Positions 38,900-63,410 of a DNA stretch of 64,000 bases are shown one piece after another. The DNA is from Methanoregula boonei 6A8 (GTDB lineage: Archaea; Halobacteriota; Methanomicrobia; Methanomicrobiales; Methanospirillaceae). Each line of letters starts with the position of its first letter. Position 1 is the stretch's first letter. The stretch is taken from assembly GCF_000017625.1 (NCBI RefSeq), contig NC_009712.1, positions 620,001 to 684,000 on the forward strand, given 5' to 3'. The notes beneath the pieces are model-generated. The model was not told where the DNA came from, made no database searches, and saw only the letters and a program-made list of their open reading frames with translations. Position numbers and translations under genes: made by a program.

Positions 38900-40090
38900 A
38901 TGCGGGTCTTTTTCATCGGATTTGGTCAAGCGGGGGGCAAAATTGTCGACATGTTCATTGAACAGGACAAAAAGCTCGGGACCCACAGTTTCCGGGGGAT
39001 TGCCGTAAACACCGCACGGACAGATCTGATGGGGCTTAAACATATTGAATTGAAAGATCGCATCCTCATCGGGCAGACCATGGTCAAAGGCCACGGTGTC
39101 GGTACTGATAACGTGACCGGCGCCCGGGTTACTGCTGATGAGATTGACAGCATCATCTCTGCTGTTGACTCACGCGGAACCCATGATATCGATGCTTTTG
39201 TGATTGTCGCAGGACTGGGGGGAGGAACCGGATCCGGTGGTTCCCCGGTACTTGCCCGCCACCTCAAACGGATCTACCGGGAACCTGTCTATGCATTGGG
39301 CATTATTCCGGCACCGGAAGAGGGCCGGCTCTACTCTTATAACGCAGCCCGCAGCCTGACCACGCTTGTTAATGAGGCTGATAACACATTCATCTTCGAT
39401 AACAGTGCATGGAAAAACGAGGGCGAGAGCGTCAAGAGTGCATTCGAGCGTCTTAATAACGAAGTTGTCCGGAGATTTGCTATTCTCTTCCGCGCCGGTG
39501 AAGTTGGCCGGATGGGTGTTGGTGAGATGGTCGTTGACTCAAGTGAGATCATCAACACCCTCCGCGGCGGCGGCATCACTTCCGTGGGGTACGCAATCAG
39601 CGAAGTGATCAGTACCCGCACCAAGCAGCAGCGGGGGCTTCTCGGAGGTATCCAGAAGAACATCAAGGATACCTTCGGGGGTAAGAAGGAAGCAAACGAG
39701 GAAGTGCTTATGGGTGAGGACCGGTCGGCAAAGATTGTCGGTCTTGTCCGGCGGGCGATGCTTGGCCGCCTCACCCTGCCCTGCGACTATTCAACCGCGG
39801 AACGTGCACTTGTTCTCTTGGCAGGCCCGCCGGACGAGATGGACCGGAAAGGTGTCGAAAAGGCCAAGAGCTGGGTTGAAGAGAATATTGCCGGTGTTGA
39901 AGTGAGAGGTGGGGACTATCCGGTCAACAGCGAGTACGTTGCTGCAGTTGTGATGCTTGCAACCGTAGGTAATGCACCCCGTATCAAGGAACTCCTGGAT
40001 ATTGCCAAGGAAACAAAAGAAGAGGTTATTAAATCCAAGGAGAAGAAATCCACTATGTTTGAGGAAGGTATCGAACCGTTGTTCGAATGA
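38900..40090 (+). CDS. cetZ: CetZ-family tubulin-like GTPase
   Basis: A 396-residue cytoskeletal GTPase of the archaeal CetZ group, which in haloarchaea shapes cells and supports motility rather than septation. The tubulin/FtsZ signature GLGGGTGSGG lies at residues 105-114, the N-terminal FFIGFGQAGGKIVDMF replaces the FtsZ start, and nucleotide-contact segments IAVNTARTDL and AARSLTTLVNEADNTFIFDN follow. The T7-like region LPCDYSTAERALVLLAGPPD is present. A TATA-like element about 30 bp upstream gives a short leader. It is followed within 9 bp by a secreted helical protein gene, an operon partner worth attention. Confidence 0.9.
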   Translation: MRVFFIGFGQAGGKIVDMFIEQDKKLGTHSFRGIAVNTARTDLMGLKHIELKDRILIGQTMVKGHGVGTDNVTGARVTADEIDSIISAVDSRGTHDIDAFVIVAGLGGGTGSGGSPVLARHLKRIYREPVYALGIIPAPEEGRLYSYNAARSLTTLVNEADNTFIFDNSAWKNEGESVKSAFERLNNEVVRRFAILFRAGEVGRMGVGEMVVDSSEIINTLRGGGITSVGYAISEVISTRTKQQRGLLGGIQKNIKDTFGGKKEANEEVLMGEDRSAKIVGLVRRAMLGRLTLPCDYSTAERALVLLAGPPDEMDRKGVEKAKSWVEENIAGVEVRGGDYPVNSEYVAAVVMLATVGNAPRIKELLDIAKETKEEVIKSKEKKSTMFEEGIEPLFE

Positions 40091-48469: not shown

Positions 48470-48557
48470 CGTCCATATTGAGTGAGTTACCCATTTTTTG
48501 CCGTGGTGACCCCGGCGGAACATCACGTTTTTAAAGCCAAAAACAGCATTGAACAAT

Positions 48558-52481: not shown

Positions 52482-53783
52482 TTACAACACCCTCTTGTCA
52501 ATCACTTTTTTTGACTTCCCTTCAAACCTCGGAAGGGATCCCGGCTCCACAAGTTCGACATCCACAGCGACATTCAGTGTGTTTCTGAGCCGGTGTTCTA
52601 CATTCTGCCGGATCCTCATGAGATCGTTGATCTTGTCGCTGAAGGACTCTTTGGTCAGCTCCACCCTGACCAGCATATCATCAAGTGCACCCGAGCGCTC
52701 GACTACGATCTGGAAGTGCTCTCCTATCTCGGGAATCGACATCAACGTATACTCAACCTGTGATGGGAAGACGTTGATGCCGCGGATGATCAACATATCA
52801 TCCACCCTTCCTTGGATCCGTTTTATCCTTGGGCTTGTTCTGCCGCAGGGGCACACTTCATCCTCGATCGAGGAGACATCTCCGATCCGGTATCGGATCA
52901 TCGGGAGCGCCTCTTTCTGGAGCATCGTGATCGTCAGTTCACCCTTTTCGCCTGTATCCAAAGGTTCACCGGTTTTGGGATCAACGATTTCCACATAAGC
53001 GATATCGGACCAGATATGGAACCCGTTCTGCTCAGAACATTCTGTAAACATGGGGCCGGAGAGTTCGCTTGTCCCGTATATGTCATATGCCTTGATCCCC
53101 AGCCAGTTTTCGATTCTGGCCCGCATATTTTCGGTCCAGGGCTCCGCTCCAAGAATGCCGGTCCTGAGCCGGGTGTCCTTTTTAATATCGATTCCCATCT
53201 TTTCTGCAACTTCGCCGATGTGGAGGAGATATGAGGGAGTGCAGGCAATTGCCGTGACATCGAGATCCTGCATCAGTTCGAGCTGGCGTTCGGTATTCCC
53301 GACACTGGTGGGGAGCACGGTTGCACCGATCCTCTCTGCCCCGTAATGCATCCCAAGTCCCCCGGTAAACAGGCCATAACCATAGCTTACCTGAATGACA
53401 TCCCCTCTGCGAAGACCAACGGAAGTGAGTCCCCGGGCAAGTGAGGTGGTCCAGAGGTCAAGATCCCGCTGTGTATAACCGACTACTGTCGGCTTCCCCG
53501 TAGTGCCTGAAGAGACATGATACCGTACCAGTTCTTCCTGCGAAGCAGTGAAGATCCGGTTAGGATAATTGTCCCTGAGATCGCGCTTGAACATGAAGGG
53601 CAGTTTCCTGATATCAGATAATTTCTTGATATCATCCGGGTGGACCTTCTGCTCCTTCATACGGTCATGGTAAAAAGACGAAAAACTATAGAGCCGGTAG
53701 ACAAGACTTTTTAACAGTTTATACTGGGTTTTCCGGAGATCCTCAACGGGCATCTCTTCTATTCGGGGATCCCAATACTGCAT
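52482..53783 (-). CDS. paaK: Phenylacetate-CoA ligase family protein (copy 1)
   Basis: A 433-residue AMP-forming ligase. The ATP-binding P-loop reads VSSGTTGKPTVVGYT, and later motifs include DIYGTSELSGP and LITIMLQKEALPMIRYRIGDVSSI. The C-terminal lid follows RIQGRVDDMLIIRGINVFP. The substrate would be phenylacetate or a related aryl acid; in methanogens the enzymes probably recycle aryl acids for aromatic amino acid synthesis through indolepyruvate-type oxidoreductases (not in this window). The start overlaps the stop of the second copy by one base. Confidence 0.93.
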   Translation of the reverse strand: MQYWDPRIEEMPVEDLRKTQYKLLKSLVYRLYSFSSFYHDRMKEQKVHPDDIKKLSDIRKLPFMFKRDLRDNYPNRIFTASQEELVRYHVSSGTTGKPTVVGYTQRDLDLWTTSLARGLTSVGLRRGDVIQVSYGYGLFTGGLGMHYGAERIGATVLPTSVGNTERQLELMQDLDVTAIACTPSYLLHIGEVAEKMGIDIKKDTRLRTGILGAEPWTENMRARIENWLGIKAYDIYGTSELSGPMFTECSEQNGFHIWSDIAYVEIVDPKTGEPLDTGEKGELTITMLQKEALPMIRYRIGDVSSIEDEVCPCGRTSPRIKRIQGRVDDMLIIRGINVFPSQVEYTLMSIPEIGEHFQIVVERSGALDDMLVRVELTKESFSDKINDLMRIRQNVEHRLRNTLNVAVDVELVEPGSLPRFEGKSKKVIDKRVL

Positions 53784-55081
53784 CAGATCTCACCTCTGCG
53801 GTCGATGACCCGCTTGGCTTTTCCCTCAAATCGTGGCAGGGAGCCGGGTTCTACCAGTTTTACTGTAGTCCGCAGTTCAAGTGTGTCGTGCAGTTCTTTT
53901 ACTACCTTTTTTTGGATCTTGGCAAGATCCGCAAGTTCCCCGGAAAAATGGCTGCGATTGATCTCGACTTCCACGGTCATCTCGTCCAGATGATTGATTC
54001 TGTCGATATATACCATAAACTGATTGCCTACCTCCGGGATCCTGAGAAGTACATGTTCAATCTGGGAGGGGAACACATTGATGCCGCGGATAATGAGCAT
54101 ATCGTCGCTCCTGCCGGTTAACCGGGCGATCTTTTTTCCCCGCCTGCAGAGGCATCCGTCTTCCATGAGCATGGTGACATCACCAGTCCGGTAACGGATG
54201 AGTGGCATCGCCTCCTTGACAAGCGGCGTCACCACCAGTTCTCCCCGTTCCCCATCAGAGAGATTTTCCCCACTGACCGGATCGATGATCTCTACCAGAT
54301 AACTGTCGTGCCAGATGTGCAGTCCATCCCGTTCGGGGCACTCGAAAGCAACTCCCGGTCCGAAGAGCTCGCTCATACCGTACGAATCAAATGCCGTGAC
54401 ACCCAGACGGTCTTCGAGAGTATGGCGCATGGTATCTGACCAGGGTTCGGCACCAAAAATGCCGGTTTTCAGGCTTTCCAGAGGTTCACCCATCTCCTCC
54501 GCGACTTCTGACAGATGCATGGCATAACTGGGGGTGCAGTGGATGGCAGTCACACCGAAATCACGGATCATCTCTATCTGGCGTCGGGTATTTCCGGTAG
54601 CGCTGGGGATCACCGTCATTCCTATGAGTTCTGCACCGTAATGGAACCCCAGCCCACCGGTAAACATTCCATAATTGACCATGTTCTGGAAAACATCATT
54701 CTTCCCGATACCGATCATGGTCATATTCCGTGCGATGAGGCTGGCCCACGTCTCCAGATCCGTGCGGGTATAACCGACAACGGTAGGTTTGCCGGTGGTA
54801 CCTGAAGTTGTGTGGATCCGAACAATCTTTTGCATGGGAACTGCAAAAAATCCAAAGGGATACCCGTCACGGAGATCCTGTTTTCTGGTGAAAGGCAACT
54901 TCGGGATGTCTTCAAGGGTTTTGATATCCGTAGCAGAAACCCCGGCCTTTTCAAACTGTTGCCGGTAAAAATCCACATGCTGTACAGCGCGAAGGGTTTT
55001 TTTCAGCCGTTTAAACTGGAGCGCCTTGAGATCTGCGGGTTTCAGAGTTTCCATTTTTTTATCCCAGAACATCCGTAGCAC
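53783..55081 (-). CDS. paaK: Phenylacetate-CoA ligase family protein (copy 2)
   Basis: A 432-residue paralogue of the neighbouring gene, with the same order of motifs: TSGTTGKPTVVGYT, DSYGMSELFGPG, LVKEAMPLIRYRTGDVTML and LTGRSDDMLIIRGINVFP. Many positions differ, so it is a diverged tandem duplicate rather than a recent copy. Start ATG 55081; an internal ATG at 55072 is a second option. It is the first gene of the paaK-paaK-ACT operon. Confidence 0.93.
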   Translation of the reverse strand: MLRMFWDKKMETLKPADLKALQFKRLKKTLRAVQHVDFYRQQFEKAGVSATDIKTLEDIPKLPFTRKQDLRDGYPFGFFAVPMQKIVRIHTTSGTTGKPTVVGYTRTDLETWASLIARNMTMIGIGKNDVFQNMVNYGMFTGGLGFHYGAELIGMTVIPSATGNTRRQIEMIRDFGVTAIHCTPSYAMHLSEVAEEMGEPLESLKTGIFGAEPWSDTMRHTLEDRLGVTAFDSYGMSELFGPGVAFECPERDGLHIWHDSYLVEIIDPVSGENLSDGERGELVVTPLVKEAMPLIRYRTGDVTMLMEDGCLCRRGKKIARLTGRSDDMLIIRGINVFPSQIEHVLLRIPEVGNQFMVYIDRINHLDEMTVEVEINRSHFSGELADLAKIQKKVVKELHDTLELRTTVKLVEPGSLPRFEGKAKRVIDRRGEI

Positions 55082-55273: not shown

Positions 55274-56206
55274 ATGACACGAGCGATTCCCTGGGTGGCA
55301 GTGTATGGGTTTGGCGCTCATATCAAGTCCACACAAAAAAAACTTAGTATCCTTGCCAAAGGAAAGGTCGAGGAGTACCCGCTTGAAGAGATACAAAATC
55401 TCCTCATTGTTGGTGGGCATCACCTTAATTCTACCACTTTCTCTCACCTGCTCAGAAATGGATCGTACATCTCCTTTTTTGAGCCGGATGGCTCCCCCTT
55501 GGGAATCCTAAAACCCTGGGGGAGTACCTGCGATACCACCATCCGGGCCCTTCAGGAAGGGGCCCCCAGGGATCGTTATGCTACAGCACTCGCCCAAGCC
55601 GCTCTTAAGTCCCGTTTGATTGCAATTGAACACATTCAGGATCAGCAGGGGTCATCCCTTTTCTATGAGGGAGAGCTGCAAATACTTCACAATGCACTTC
55701 ATAATCTCGAATATATGGTCAAACTGGACGAGATCCGGCGTCTTTCCGATCTGACTGCAAATATGTATTACGAGATTCTTTCGCGTGATATTCCCCGTGA
55801 GTTCGATTTCCGGAGACGCACAGTCAGGCCGCAGTGCGATCCCATCAACGCTATGCTCTCTTTTGGCTATGCCATGCTTTTTGGGAACTGTTGTGTCCCC
55901 GTTATCGGAGCCCGCCTCGATCCTGATCTCGGGATCCTTTATGAGGGATCGGGAGCTCTTGTTCAGGATCTTATGGCCTCATTTAAAGCCCAGATGATTG
56001 ACGGGGTTATATGGAGCATTGCCCGGGATTCATTGAATGTCGGGGATTTTGAGATAACATCAAACCGGTGTATACTTTCGGACAACCTGATTCAGAATTT
56101 AATGTCTTCGTTTCGGAAATCCATTGATAATCAAAAACTGGATTGCCAGGTACATAATTTCCTGCAGGCTCTTTCGAACAAGGAAGATCTCACAATACTG
56201 TACTGA
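55274..56206 (+). CDS. cas1: Cas1 homologue, solo, with degenerate metal-binding site
   Basis: A 310-residue protein with the complete Cas1 layout: beta-rich N-terminal domain (VYGFGAHIKS, SYISFFEPDGSPLGIL), then the helical domain with DPINAMLSFGYAMLF, the family signature. Canonical metal ligands appear replaced: the Glu of the IRxxEGxxA motif is Ser158 (IRRLSDLTANMYY), the His of the GxLHE motif is Tyr223 (GILYEG), and the second acid of the DLMEEF motif is Ala235 (QDLMASF); Asp232 is kept. It is therefore predicted to lack integrase chemistry. No cas2, other cas gene or CRISPR array is in the window. ATG 55274 is the first workable start. The 3' end overlaps the convergent acylphosphatase by 17 bp. 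Solo Cas1 lineages are known in archaea. Confidence 0.88.
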   Translation: MTRAIPWVAVYGFGAHIKSTQKKLSILAKGKVEEYPLEEIQNLLIVGGHHLNSTTFSHLLRNGSYISFFEPDGSPLGILKPWGSTCDTTIRALQEGAPRDRYATALAQAALKSRLIAIEHIQDQQGSSLFYEGELQILHNALHNLEYMVKLDEIRRLSDLTANMYYEILSRDIPREFDFRRRTVRPQCDPINAMLSFGYAMLFGNCCVPVIGARLDPDLGILYEGSGALVQDLMASFKAQMIDGVIWSIARDSLNVGDFEITSNRCILSDNLIQNLMSSFRKSIDNQKLDCQVHNFLQALSNKEDLTILY

Positions 56207-56483
56207 CCGGCCCGCTGATCTTGATAATGGAGAACTCGGTGTAGGTCCTGATCGGAATATCTGTAGTATGCATATCCCGTATCACCGCCCGTGGACAACT
56301 ATAGAGCATTGAGATGAATTTTTCCAGAATGATCGGCTCTGCTGTAGCAAATATCTGAACTTTTCCATCGGAAAGATTCATGACAGTACCGGTTACGTTC
56401 AGATCGCTGGCAATCTTTCTGGCACAGGCGCGAAACCCCACTTTCTGCACCCGGCCCGTAATGAGAATCTCTACGGTTTTCAT
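56190..56483 (-). CDS. Acylphosphatase-like protein (copy 2)
   Basis: A 97-residue acylphosphatase-fold protein with GRVQKVGFRACARK for the phosphate loop (Arg retained) and GTVMNLSDGKVQI with the Asn. Compared with the copy at 28.4 kb, the usual G-V-G-Y/F-R context is kept (KVGFR), so it may be active. Its start overlaps the stop of the giant helical-repeat gene (56480) by four bases, making the two translationally coupled, and its 3' end overlaps cas1. The pairing with a solenoid protein suggests a joint function that cannot be named. Confidence 0.82.
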   Translation of the reverse strand: MKTVEILITGRVQKVGFRACARKIASDLNVTGTVMNLSDGKVQIFATAEPIILEKFISMLYSCPRAVIRDMHTTDIPIRTYTEFSIIKISGPVSTVL

Positions 56484-59400
56484 TCCGGTTCACCTCCCTG
56501 GAGTATTCGTATGGCCATTCCCAGCTCATTGAAGACTTCGTCTCTTAAGATCGATTGCCGGATATTTGTGGCGGCATCAATTGCCTGGTCGAGAATATCC
56601 TGCGCAACACTCTCGTATCCCGCAGTGAACATTTTTATTGCCATGTCGCATCGTATATATGCTCTTTTTGAGAGTGGCCTGATGATCTCCGACTCATTTA
56701 TCGCGTTCTGCAACATTCGTCTCGCTGTTTTAATCTCACCGTTTTCACGGAAGAGAATGGAGAGACGGCAGTATATAAGGGCCCGTTTCCCTCGATCAGG
56801 AACTGCATGAACTGTCTGTTCGAGTGATGCAATCTGGCCCGGCGGGGCACCGGTGTCAATAAGCCGGGTCATAGTTGCCATGATCTTTGTAGAGGGCAGA
56901 TTCTTTTCCGTTGTATCTTCGCATCCAATCCGGGCCAGGCTATCCTGCCGAAGCTGATCATCTTCTATCAATGCAAGGATCTCTGCAGATTTTTTCAGAT
57001 ATCGTTCATCTCCCTGCATTCGGAAGAGATCTTCCAGGATACGTGCAACTTCGTCACGGATGGAATCGGCTACATGCTGAACATTTATCGTTTCTGACAA
57101 TTGTTCTGCGCGGTTAAGAAGATCAAGTGCAAATGCGATCTCCCCTTTCCTTACAGCAAGCGGTATCAGTTTGAGAGTGAGCAGTGCCTGATTATAGGGT
57201 GAATCGATTTTTTCAAGTGATTCTGAAATATGACGCAATGTACTTCTTCCCTGATCCTCTCCATCAAGGGTGTAGGCGGAAATGAGTGCAGTTACATACT
57301 CTATGGGATCTGAGATATCGGCAATAATTTCCAGAATCAGACTCAAGCGGGTCTTCTCCGGAAGGAGATCGCCTGCCCGGACTATTGCTGCTACCATCTT
57401 CCTGTGGACGAGGGTACTTTGGTCAGGTTCCACATTGTGCAGGCGATCTAATCCTTCCTGTAGACATTTTTGCGCCATCTCCGGATCAATATCATGGTAC
57501 CCGACAGTCAGTTCTGCGAGTATCAGGATCTTCTCATGCTCCGTGGGAAGACTGCTTACGCCGTCGGTTACCTCGGAGAGCATTCTTTGGCACCCCTGCT
57601 CATCGTGTATTATAAGAGTTGATTCGGCAAGTGCACACAGTCCTTTCAAACGGATAAAGGGGTTTTGAATGAGATCGAGAAGGTGGTGTATCAGGATAAT
57701 GATTGCAGGGGTTGATCGCACGTTGTACCGATTCTGGAGAATATATGCCAGTATTTCGTAGGGATCTGCCGAATCCGGATACACGATATCTTCTCCCAGT
57801 TTGGCAATTATCCGCAGCATCATGGCATTGCGCTCTAAGGGATCGTCAATCTCGAGGGCATACAAAGCTAAGGGAAGGACAAAGTCCCGATCGGTACTTT
57901 TTTTCGAAAAGGAGAGGATGATATCGATCATCCCTGCAATTTTTAGTGATATACGGGGTTTTTTCACTTCGGCTTTCAAAAGCTGCAGACTTTTCCTGAA
58001 GGGATGTAACAGAGCATCGTGATCTGCATGGTTTTTCTGCCCCTCGGTGGCGTTCTGTATGCGGATGCACCCAATTCTGACAAATGATTCTGCAATCCGC
58101 TCGCTTATTTGTATCCTTAATGCCGGGTCCTCAATATCCTGCGCAATACGATATGCTTCTTCGAGGGCATCGGGGTCCCGTTTGCTGAGAGCATATTTTA
58201 TTACTCCGTCAACGATATTTTTTATCGCGTATGTGACGATGCTGCTGTCCAAAAATGCGGAACTCCAGATCCTCATTCGTAAGAGAAGATCAAGATCTCC
58301 TTGTGTTGCTGCAAGAAGGGCTGCATCGTCAATAATACTGCTCAGTGTCGATGACCGGATATTTTCCCCTTCTATCATGCAAGTGATGCCAACGGCCTGC
58401 TGGAGAATATCGCGGTTTTTGGTTCTCACTCCGATTTCTGCCAGTTTCATGACCACTGTTGACATTGCTTCTTCACGGGCAGACGTAGTCCGGATCCTTT
58501 TTGCGAGATCCACGAGAAATAATGCATCAAACGAATCAAGGAAGCCTCTGGATGTCAGAGTCATGATAAAATCAGTGATCACAGAATCTGTTCTGTCATT
58601 GAGATCAAGGAGCCGCTTTAAGGAATCACCGTGTTTTGCAATCTCCTCAAACGAGGTATTTTGTCCCATCTCGCGCATTGCAAGGGAAACAGCAAGAGAG
58701 ACGTTATCGGGAGTACTGTTTTCCAGGATTTCACGGAACTGGGCGGAACCCAATTCCAGTGTTATTCCCATTTTGAGCATGTGGGCAAGGCAGAATGTAT
58801 ACTGGGGCATCCTCTCATGATCCGGAGTGATCTGTGAAAACAGTGCGGCAGCTTGCTCAAAAGCTTCCAGTTCGAGCATAACGCTTACAAATTGCAGATA
58901 GATTTCCGTTAGCTCGCTATGGCTGCAGGATTCATTGGCAAATGGAATCAGCTGTCCGATAATTGAGGTTGAGCGGGTACGCCGCGCAATACCTATGCCC
59001 GCCCGGATGATCTCTCGTACCGGAACCTTTTCTTCCGATTGGAATTCTTGGATAAATCCTATTGCAGTAGTCAGGTACCATGAATCACCGGAACGCTCCG
59101 CCTTAATAAGAAGATTTTGAACGAGATTTTCCTGGATAAAAGGGAATTTTGCTCTGAGAAAAAGAAGATTTTCCAGAATTTGACTTTTATTTTTTATCCG
59201 CTCCAGGAATTGTTCAGTCAGGGAATCAATCAGCTCACCCTGAATTTCAGGTAAAAGATCCTCAAATCGGGGAATAAGGAGGCGGACATCGGTAAGATCT
59301 TTTACCAGCGAAGATCGCATTCCCAGACCTATGATATGATCCATGCATGCCCGTCTTCGAATCTTCTGGTGTATCTGGGCAGTTAAGTGTAAGCTCTTCA

Positions 59401-60043
59401 GAAGAAGGTTCAAATCTTCCGTTTTCACGGCATTTGTTGCAAGAGCCTCCGTTATTTCTGCATGAAGTGCTGCTCGTTTTGAAATATCGGTGACCTCATT
59501 GGTAAGATCATAGATTTCACAGAGCAGGGTATTGTTCCCCTTCTGGAGGGCCCATCTGGTGAGTCTGGATGCAGCTTCGGTTGTACATTCTGACCGGTAT
59601 TTTCTAAATGAGATTTTATTGAGGCTTGCAATACCGGTTTCAATAAATAGGGGATTAGCCTCTTCAATACCTGCTGAAATGAGGTTTTGAACAATGCCGG
59701 CTATTATTTTCGATTTCAGACTTTTTTTCCCCAGTTTTTCCGCAAGAATAAAAATGCCGTCGAGCCATCCTCTATTCCCCGATTTCGTATATTGTTTTAC
59801 AAGCCGCGAGAAGAACTCCTCAGCTCCATCTGGTGGAATCGTCCTGATTGCAACTAGCACCTCCGGGGAATTGTGCTGAAAGGCATAATCAAGGATGGTT
59901 GCATTCAGTGCCTGATACATCAACGCCCGGGCTTTCCTCTCTTTAAAATGTGCCGAATCGGAAACAAGAGTATCAATGCCCTCCCAGTCTTTGGAGGCAA
60001 GCCTTTGACGAATTCGTTCAGTAACCAGGCCGGATAACAACAT
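56480..60043 (-). CDS. Giant alpha-solenoid protein, unknown function
   Basis: A 1187-residue protein with no signal peptide, membrane helix or enzyme motif. It consists almost entirely of helical hairpins of about 35-70 residues with Ala/Leu/Ile spacing typical of HEAT/TPR-like repeats, for example DLDLLLRMRIWSSAFLDSSI and DPDALEEAYRIAQDIEDPAL; many units contain a D-P or G-D turn. Such proteins are scaffolds. The start ATG 60043 is preceded by direct repeats. It is coupled to the downstream acylphosphatase and abuts cas1 across it. Composition is more AT-rich than the housekeeping genes. It has no recognised family. Confidence 0.8.
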   Translation of the reverse strand: MLLSGLVTERIRQRLASKDWEGIDTLVSDSAHFKERKARALMYQALNATILDYAFQHNSPEVLVAIRTIPPDGAEEFFSRLVKQYTKSGNRGWLDGIFILAEKLGKKSLKSKIIAGIVQNLISAGIEEANPLFIETGIASLNKISFRKYRSECTTEAASRLTRWALQKGNNTLLCEIYDLTNEVTDISKRAALHAEITEALATNAVKTEDLNLLLKSLHLTAQIHQKIRRRACMDHIIGLGMRSSLVKDLTDVRLLIPRFEDLLPEIQGELIDSLTEQFLERIKNKSQILENLLFLRAKFPFIQENLVQNLLIKAERSGDSWYLTTAIGFIQEFQSEEKVPVREIIRAGIGIARRTRSTSIIGQLIPFANESCSHSELTEIYLQFVSVMLELEAFEQAAALFSQITPDHERMPQYTFCLAHMLKMGITLELGSAQFREILENSTPDNVSLAVSLAMREMGQNTSFEEIAKHGDSLKRLLDLNDRTDSVITDFIMTLTSRGFLDSFDALFLVDLAKRIRTTSAREEAMSTVVMKLAEIGVRTKNRDILQQAVGITCMIEGENIRSSTLSSIIDDAALLAATQGDLDLLLRMRIWSSAFLDSSIVTYAIKNIVDGVIKYALSKRDPDALEEAYRIAQDIEDPALRIQISERIAESFVRIGCIRIQNATEGQKNHADHDALLHPFRKSLQLLKAEVKKPRISLKIAGMIDIILSFSKKSTDRDFVLPLALYALEIDDPLERNAMMLRIIAKLGEDIVYPDSADPYEILAYILQNRYNVRSTPAIIILIHHLLDLIQNPFIRLKGLCALAESTLIIHDEQGCQRMLSEVTDGVSSLPTEHEKILILAELTVGYHDIDPEMAQKCLQEGLDRLHNVEPDQSTLVHRKMVAAIVRAGDLLPEKTRLSLILEIIADISDPIEYVTALISAYTLDGEDQGRSTLRHISESLEKIDSPYNQALLTLKLIPLAVRKGEIAFALDLLNRAEQLSETINVQHVADSIRDEVARILEDLFRMQGDERYLKKSAEILALIEDDQLRQDSLARIGCEDTTEKNLPSTKIMATMTRLIDTGAPPGQIASLEQTVHAVPDRGKRALIYCRLSILFRENGEIKTARRMLQNAINESEIIRPLSKRAYIRCDMAIKMFTAGYESVAQDILDQAIDAATNIRQSILRDEVFNELGMAIRILQGGEPE

Positions 60044-61699: not shown

Positions 61700-62110
61700 T
61701 TAATAATCTTCGAAGGAGGATAGGGAGGCGATTACCTGATCGACTGTCGGGTTTCGCAGGATACCGGTATCATCCTGAAGATCCCCAATAACAATCTTCG
61801 GGAACGGATACTTCTTGAATCCTTCAATAACTGCGAAATCGATGTCCTGCTGTTTATACAGATAAAGCATCATATCAAGAGAGTTGGAACGGAACGTTAC
61901 GACCGATTTACCGGCATCAATTCCTGTGGTGAGATCTGCACCGTTCTCAAAAAAGAGGGTAGTATCTTTCCCTTCTTCTAGCCGGTATTCATGATCCCCG
62001 AGGTGTTTTATCACACCAACCGTTCCATAAATTTTGAGTTCGGGAATAAGCTTGCAGATAAAGGTGGTCTTTCCCGAATTTGAACGGCCAGTAACCGGAA
62101 TTATCTTCAT
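61700..62110 (-). CDS. mobB: Molybdopterin-guanine dinucleotide biosynthesis protein MobB
   Basis: A 136-residue P-loop NTPase assisting guanylylation of molybdopterin, needed for tungsten- or molybdenum-containing formylmethanofuran and formate dehydrogenases. The P loop is PVTGRSNSGKTTFICKLI and the later segment DIDFAVIEGFKKYPFPKIVI is typical. Its start overlaps the DUF5806-like stop by four bases. Confidence 0.9.
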   Translation of the reverse strand: MKIIPVTGRSNSGKTTFICKLIPELKIYGTVGVIKHLGDHEYRLEEGKDTTLFFENGADLTTGIDAGKSVVTFRSNSLDMMLYLYKQQDIDFAVIEGFKKYPFPKIVIGDLQDDTGILRNPTVDQVIASLSSFEDY

Positions 62111-62922
62111 GGTTGTAAACCCTCGTTGGTGTTCCCGGAGGAGTTCATCGAAAGAGTATCAGAATTTTTTTCATCAGGGTATGAAGAGGGGATAGCCTGA
62201 GTGGTTGTGAAGAGTTCATGTCCATTCTGTCGGGGAGACTGTGACTGTGTTTTTGCCATCTGATCTGGACGAGTAGGGAATTCGACTGCGTTATCCTCTG
62301 GCTGAAGAACAGGAGAATTTTCTGGGTTGGGCGGCTTGTTTGTTTCAGGAAATCTTGTCTCCTTGTCATGAGGTTCTTTAGGATTTTCTGAGGGGGTATC
62401 CTCTTCATCAGTATGAGTATTTTCGGTTCTCTGAGTGAGGATCGTCTTTGCGGTTTCCCCGACGCTTCGCATAACTCTGGTGATCCTGTCCTCGATATCA
62501 ATCTCCTCATCGATATCCAGTGTCGTTCCTTCAACCTCCAGAAGAAATCGTGAAACTTCGCTTGCCTCAAAGAGGAGGTCATCGAGTTCGTCCGTGGTAA
62601 AGAATCCGCACATTGCCCCGTAGAAAAAGGTGGCGCTTGCTTTTCGTACTTTTTTCTTGAATGAATGGCGTGCCTGGTTCACAGCCTGGGGAGAGTACTG
62701 TTCCTCCATGAAGGGGACCAGTTCCGGGAGATGTCTCCCGATAAAGGTCATTTCAGCCCCTCCGGACGTCCGAAAGTCCGTGCACAACCGGGCCAGCGCC
62801 CATTCTCGGGCCGTGATATAGGTACGTTTGCGCAGAAACTGGTTTACTTTTCGGTATGTGGCGCCGTCGACTTTTTTGAATTTCTTGTATTTATTGATCA
62901 CATCTTGGCTGTTATCTTCCAT
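62107..62922 (-). CDS. DUF5806-like archaeal protein with disordered C-terminal tail
   Basis: A 271-residue protein. Residues 1 to about 150 form a conserved-looking helical domain (YKKFKKVDGATYRKVNQFL, TYITAREWALARLCTDFRT, YSPQAVNQARHSFKKKVRKA) resembling the archaeal DUF5806 family, named from memory. The rest is a Pro/Glu/Ser/Asn-rich, low-complexity tail of about 110 residues, presumably disordered. YITAREWALARLCTDFR suggests a DNA- or RNA-binding helical bundle. It is coupled to mobB. The function is unknown. Confidence 0.65.
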   Translation of the reverse strand: MEDNSQDVINKYKKFKKVDGATYRKVNQFLRKRTYITAREWALARLCTDFRTSGGAEMTFIGRHLPELVPFMEEQYSPQAVNQARHSFKKKVRKASATFFYGAMCGFFTTDELDDLLFEASEVSRFLLEVEGTTLDIDEEIDIEDRITRVMRSVGETAKTILTQRTENTHTDEEDTPSENPKEPHDKETRFPETNKPPNPENSPVLQPEDNAVEFPTRPDQMAKTQSQSPRQNGHELFTTTQAIPSSYPDEKNSDTLSMNSSGNTNEGLQP

Positions 62923-63146: not shown

Positions 63147-63410
63147 ATGTGCCCTTTTTCACAAATCGCGAGACAGAAATGCTGGGAATTATGGTTTGGC
63201 GATAATAACGTAGGCGTCTGTAAAAGAAAAGGTTGTACGAAGACAATTTATCGAAATGCAGGTCCTGATTCTGTCCATCATTGGCATGCCGGTCATATAA
63301 GATCATCAGCAAGTGGTGGTTCAGACAATGTTAAAAGAAATTGTGTTCCCCTATGTGACGAATGTAATCGGGAAATTGGAGCAAACCATACTCCCGCCAA
63401 TAAAAGATAA
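63147..63410 (+). CDS. Small HNH-type zinc endonuclease-like protein
   Basis: An 87-residue HNH-family protein. The beta-beta-alpha-metal core is HAGHIRSSASGGSDNVKRNC followed by VPLCDECN; paired Cys in CKRKGC and CDEC likely bind structural Zn. The start ATG follows a TATA-like TTATTTAAG by about 20 bp, so it is probably leaderless or nearly so. Small solitary HNH proteins occur in mobile DNA, restriction systems and phages. AT-rich composition and the following tiny genes support recent acquisition. Confidence 0.78.
   Translation: MCPFSQIARQKCWELWFGDNNVGVCKRKGCTKTIYRNAGPDSVHHWHAGHIRSSASGGSDNVKRNCVPLCDECNREIGANHTPANKR

Follow-up and report, generated by a model that had tools for sequence, protein, structure and literature searches.

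Results

The cas1-solo locus in Methanoregula boonei

The window analysed here, a stretch of 64,000 nucleotides from the chromosome of Methanoregula boonei 6A8, contains a cas1-solo (group 1) gene on its forward strand (55274..56206, +), recognized from the open reading frame, profile matches and predicted fold. It starts with ATG, has no internal stops and encodes a catalytically incomplete Cas1 of 310 amino acids. Pfam PF01867 (Cas_Cas1) matches residues 10-281 with 183 bits (E 7.3e-54), and TIGR00287 and many PADLOC Cas1 models match the protein as well. An AlphaFold2 model, built with 75 orthologues, has the Cas1 fold with a pLDDT of 94.7 and a pTM of 0.91, and the top PDB hits that Foldseek gives for it are without exception Cas1 proteins or the casposase (6opm_B, TM 0.83). 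An initial sequence-only reading, which had taken this gene for a Cas1 with its fold intact and had called for a structure prediction, is borne out on this point.

The gene is followed by a convergent acylphosphatase gene (56190..56483, -; PF00708), whose position is conserved; the two genes share 17 bp at their 3' ends. Next to the acylphosphatase gene lies the gene of a 1187-residue protein (56480..60043, -), another conserved positional neighbour, which matches nothing in Pfam, NCBIfam or PADLOC, is predicted by AlphaFold2 to be helical from end to end (pLDDT 86.8, pTM 0.47) and evolves faster than cas1-solo. On the upstream side, profiles and synteny identify a divergent gene for a phenylacetate-CoA ligase-like AMP-binding protein (53783..55081, -). 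A DUF5806 protein (62107-62922, -; PF19122, E 1e-70) is encoded within the same conserved neighbourhood. Elsewhere in the window are an 87-residue open reading frame (63147-63410, +), in which an HNH-type nuclease domain can be made out by eye and which lies about 7 kb from cas1-solo with no link seen between the two, and a CetZ-type tubulin gene (38900-40090, +; PF21011, E 9e-71). Scans for sigma-70 promoters and terminators, with models that are ill-suited to archaea, gave nothing above chance.

Five of the six families of the order Methanomicrobiales have members in which the acylphosphatase, the 1187-residue protein and a phosphomannomutase gene adjoin cas1-solo; in the sixth (f6) it is mostly the acylphosphatase alone that still does so. 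The position is lost in one small-genome genus (g25) and altered in another (g13). Because the neighbours of cas1-solo are convergent or divergent, there is no operon, and these orientations, together with the lack of any gene that follows cas1-solo in every family, leave no guilt by association to be drawn. An operon-based function was therefore rejected, and of the special interest once attached to the gene context it is the conserved chromosomal position that remains.

Loss of the catalytic ligands

The alignment with Synechocystis Cas1 (7cr6) is ungapped and places Ser158 (55745..55747, +) in the column of the catalytic Glu (E141 in Escherichia coli, E162 in the casposase), Tyr223 (55940..55942, +) in that of the catalytic His (H208 and H232, respectively) and Ala235 (55976..55978, +) in that of the last acid (D221 and E247). 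Asp232 (55967..55969, +), in the column of E. coli D218, is the sole ligand retained. All 35 CRISPR Cas1 rows read E, H, D, [ED] in these four columns, and the three replacements proposed at the outset are thereby confirmed. It had also been suggested that Asp159 or Glu224 might stand in as ligands. Both were rejected as unconserved: the column of Asp159 is mostly R, K, T or Q in other members, and Glu224 is Glu in only 59 of 102.

When counted over 162 distinct family proteins, the catalytic Glu is present in 8 and missing in 154, His being the commonest residue in its place (87 members). The catalytic His is kept in 92 proteins, Asp232 is Asp in 160, column 235 is acidic in 149, and about a third (50/162) show the pattern HHD[ED]. 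Thus the question of whether Ser158, Tyr223 and Ala235 are conserved in orthologues has a divided answer: the loss of Glu is near-universal, whereas the combination is particular to M. boonei, whose sister copies read SHDG against its own SYDA, more ligands having been lost here. By minimum change counts on the gene tree, the solos alone account for no fewer than 18 changes of the His state, and the Glu and acid states changed 5 and 4 times over all rows; columns 158 and 223 vary more than the median column. Such drifting ligand columns, as read from the alignment, present the picture of a released active site.

A complete quartet was seen in just one of the 162 proteins (L184, EHDE, from a Lake Pavin MAG), leaving it incomplete in 161. 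Since the relatives of L184 at 81-89% identity read ENDE or EKDE, and since L184 itself has Arg, like the rest of the family, in place of both Gly residues of the CRISPR RGxEG motif, its quartet is probably a chance reassembly. Judging by their residues, some members, such as L184 and the 50 with HHD[ED], could still bind metal.

A genome that appears to be free of CRISPR-Cas

The complete genome of M. boonei, a single contig of 2,542,943 bases, was searched for CRISPR components. PF01867 matches this one gene only, so that there is no second Cas1, and the profiles PF09827 (Cas2), PF03787 (RAMPs), TIGR01596 (Cas3 HD) and PF01930 (Cas4) have no matches genome-wide. No CRISPR array was found in 1.264 Mb around cas1-solo, out of 2.543 Mb, with a script that recovered arrays at 15 of 20 control CRISPR loci. 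Within the window, Pfam scans of nearly all open reading frames of at least 330 aa (all but the one at 48549 and those frames that overlap other genes) revealed neither PolB nor a further cas gene, in agreement with the first impression that cas2, other cas genes and a casposon polymerase are missing there. With the four profiles blank and no array in the region scanned, about half of the genome, the cell appears to lack a CRISPR-Cas system; these same searches showed no cas gene of the families covered, and no array, just outside the window that might have served this gene.

Order-wide retention and vertical inheritance

Orthologues were found in 217 of 232 Methanomicrobiales genomes, representing 38 of 40 genera, and in 133 of the 135 near-complete ones (at least 90% complete). 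Three of the four misses examined are contig-end effects. In one of the two near-complete genomes concerned (G093) the contig stops 2 bases past the match to the 1187-residue neighbour, where the locus should continue; in G139 the contig runs out 24 codons into cas1-solo; and in G061 the neighbour sits at the contig start. In the other near-complete miss (G160) the 1187-residue protein is absent too. Cas2 was detected in 68 of the 135 near-complete genomes, and 65 of them have the solo gene without a detected Cas2.

Among the matches listed, orthologues within the order score 355-484 bits, and the best match outside it, in 391 genomes of the phylum, scores 164. The solos form one clade in the Cas1 tree (SH-aLRT 100), each of the six families forms one group in the gene tree, and the family label changes five times, which is the minimum; by these trees, the gene is vertically inherited in congruence with taxonomy. 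As to selection, which the sequence-only reading had wished to see examined, the median pairwise dN/dS is 0.15 in close pairs, the window gene's own value not being among them owing to saturated dS, and the family, as judged from such pairs, is under purifying selection. The M. boonei copy has a branch of 0.34, against 0.06 for its sisters; its relative rate is only slightly raised, and some neighbouring genes differ similarly.

Two groups of sequences outside the order deserve mention. A contig labelled Geobacter sp. UBA4074 (L189) carries a group 1 solo Cas1 at 50% identity, the only such case among 80 named matches, and is probably archaeal contamination of the MAG. The best Cas1 proteins outside the order (L192-L195), which score 143-164 bits, all belong to genomes of a single other family (f8); their active sites are complete and arrays adjoin three of the four loci. 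They are candidates, on the basis of similarity, for the nearest CRISPR relatives of the solos, and the tree does not place them as sister to these.

A rewritten helix at the former active site

In place of the Glu motif RGxEG of CRISPR Cas1, the solos carry an invariant-rich RR..R....MYYE...R, in its fuller form E..RR..R....MYYE...R. This rewritten active-site helix covers codons 153-171 (55730..55786, +) and includes E153, R156, M164, Y165, Y166, E167 and R171; the predicted helix spans residues 151-170, so that residue 171 lies just beyond its end. Seven residues, namely E134, R156, Y165, Y166, E167, R171 and D243, are identical in all 162 members. Residues that are invariant or nearly so in the solos and not in CRISPR Cas1 include W7, R114, E134, E153, R156, M164, Y166, E167, R171, R181 and R265, while Q94, Y165, R182, P186, N192 and D243 are retained from the Cas1 core.

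From helix periodicity, E153, R156, M164, E167 and R171 would share one helix face, some 160-240 degrees from position 158, and this face would lie opposite the old catalytic Glu. The pattern points to the former catalytic helix having become a rebuilt functional or packing face rather than having simply decayed, though the constraint on it might be one of packing alone.

Discussion

A probable CRISPR-independent role

Exaptation of CRISPR parts for roles other than defence has been much discussed. We consider it probable that the solo Cas1 is an instance, namely an exapted, non-catalytic adaptor with the Cas1 fold that performs a CRISPR-independent housekeeping role and is vertically inherited and specific to this order. 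The catalytic Glu would have been lost early in the solo lineage, the remaining ligands being left to drift, and the window protein would have ceased to integrate DNA as it was taken into a conserved role outside CRISPR. The fold, with its N-terminal beta domain and helical domain, would then serve as a non-catalytic binding scaffold, which may dimerise as Cas1 does; the conserved block around MYYE would be its most constrained, working part, and its partner might be a protein or a nucleic-acid structure. A bolder version of this proposal, to which we give slightly less than even confidence, is that the catalytic helix was rebuilt in the ancestor of the order, creating a new invariant surface (R114, E134, E153, R156, M164-E167, R171 and R265) and turning a dead Cas1 into a core, CRISPR-independent component of the cell.

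The alternative that survives best, although we regard it as rather unlikely, is that the protein has been domesticated for nucleic-acid binding, the Cas1 groove holding DNA or RNA structures without cutting them. The retained core residues are in line with this idea, as are the added invariant arginines R114, R156, R171, R181 and R265. Casposase R250 contacts the DNA backbone (PMC6977970), and its column, at position 238, is K or R in 92 of 102 solos. On the other hand, when the casposase contacts reported in that study were transferred by hand through pairwise alignment, R191/R192 had no counterpart in the solos, K238 and N239 were not kept, and the Y206 column was mostly F or L. The solos are also acidic, with a median net charge of -5 and a pI of 6.2 compared with +2 and 8.2 in the CRISPR Cas1 set, and with -6 against +4 over residues 86-310, although the net charges of CRISPR Cas1 proteins from Methanomicrobiales range from -8 to +14 around a median of +1.5. 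With the acidic charge and most casposase contacts unkept, and the R250 column kept, DNA binding by the solo Cas1 is possible, conservation offering it little backing.

It is less probable still, and in our view improbable, that the protein is still an enzyme but has an altered metal site, in which replacement of Glu by His would yield a 2-His/2-carboxylate centre, HHD[ED], accepting another metal and perhaps catalysing another reaction. The prevalence of His in the Glu column, the HHD[ED] pattern in about a third of members, the near-invariance of Asp232 and the mostly acidic column 235 would all suit such a centre. Yet His223 has changed again and again on the tree, and many members, the window copy with S, Y, D, A included, keep just one or two ligands. 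Drift of this kind would be unexpected of the catalytic centre of an order-wide core gene.

The remaining explanations have very little to recommend them. The possibility that the M. boonei copy is a recent pseudoenzyme or a decaying gene, first raised from the sequence, might seem to draw on its long branch and its more extensive ligand loss relative to its sisters, but we consider it highly improbable, and the suggestion of recency does not hold: the Glu is lost across the order, and the copy is an intact reading frame of a core gene under purifying selection elsewhere in the family, retains the family-wide invariant residues and has a barely raised relative rate, shared by some of its neighbours. 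Just as remote is the idea that the protein assists CRISPR adaptation in trans, as a Cas1 subunit without activity; only two of the four subunits of the casposase tetramer are catalytic (PMC6977970), but a role of this kind is contradicted for this genome, where no other Cas1, Cas2, Cas4 or effector gene was found, and stands against the 65 near-complete genomes that have the solo without a detected Cas2.

An exaptation of a CRISPR part that is retained by nearly a whole order would be notable, and a dead Cas1 that is an order-wide core gene makes the exaptation question testable. There is a practical warning for annotators as well. Given that half of the near-complete genomes of the order have no detectable Cas2, an automatic 'Cas1' label on such a gene is no proof of a CRISPR system.

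Comparison with known Cas1 systems

The window protein shares with CRISPR-associated Cas1 (Archaeoglobus fulgidus, 4n06; Synechocystis, 7cr6) the fold, the N-terminal domain and the R182/P186/N192/D243 core. It differs from them in lacking the catalytic quartet, and in its genome Cas2 was not found and no array was present in the 1.264 Mb scanned. Casposases (Cas1-solo group 2; Methanosarcina mazei, 6opm) are similar to it in fold (TM 0.83) and in standing alone, but they keep all four residues, have PolB alongside and lie within terminal inverted repeats, whereas at the window gene PolB was not found, the quartet is incomplete and the place in the chromosome varies little. Inverted repeats between 50000 and 62000 amount to weak pairs of 16-30 nt at 70-94%, none recognizable as the ends of an element. 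A casposon remnant was accordingly rejected, PolB being missing from the scanned window ORFs along with clear element ends; phage or plasmid relatives were rejected too, only distant CRISPR-type Cas1 proteins having matched.

The solo family entered the literature in 2013-2014 (Krupovic 2014, PMC4046053, and Makarova 2013, cited there), and its group 1 is known from Methanomicrobiales only, with no sign of horizontal transfer and no member with a full active site (PMC4046053; PMC9939771). The accessible literature on group 1 does not propose a function. By its sequence, the window gene is a member of this group and, with no second Cas1 in the genome, a solo of a known archaeal lineage, as had been supposed: it is restricted to the order, falls in a separate, vertically inherited clade, is unlinked to CRISPR and has an incomplete quartet, and there is no real difference between the two. 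A finding of this kind has therefore already been published. What is new here is the near-universal retention across the order, the single full quartet among 162 proteins, the rewritten helix motif and the independence from Cas2 over 135 genomes.
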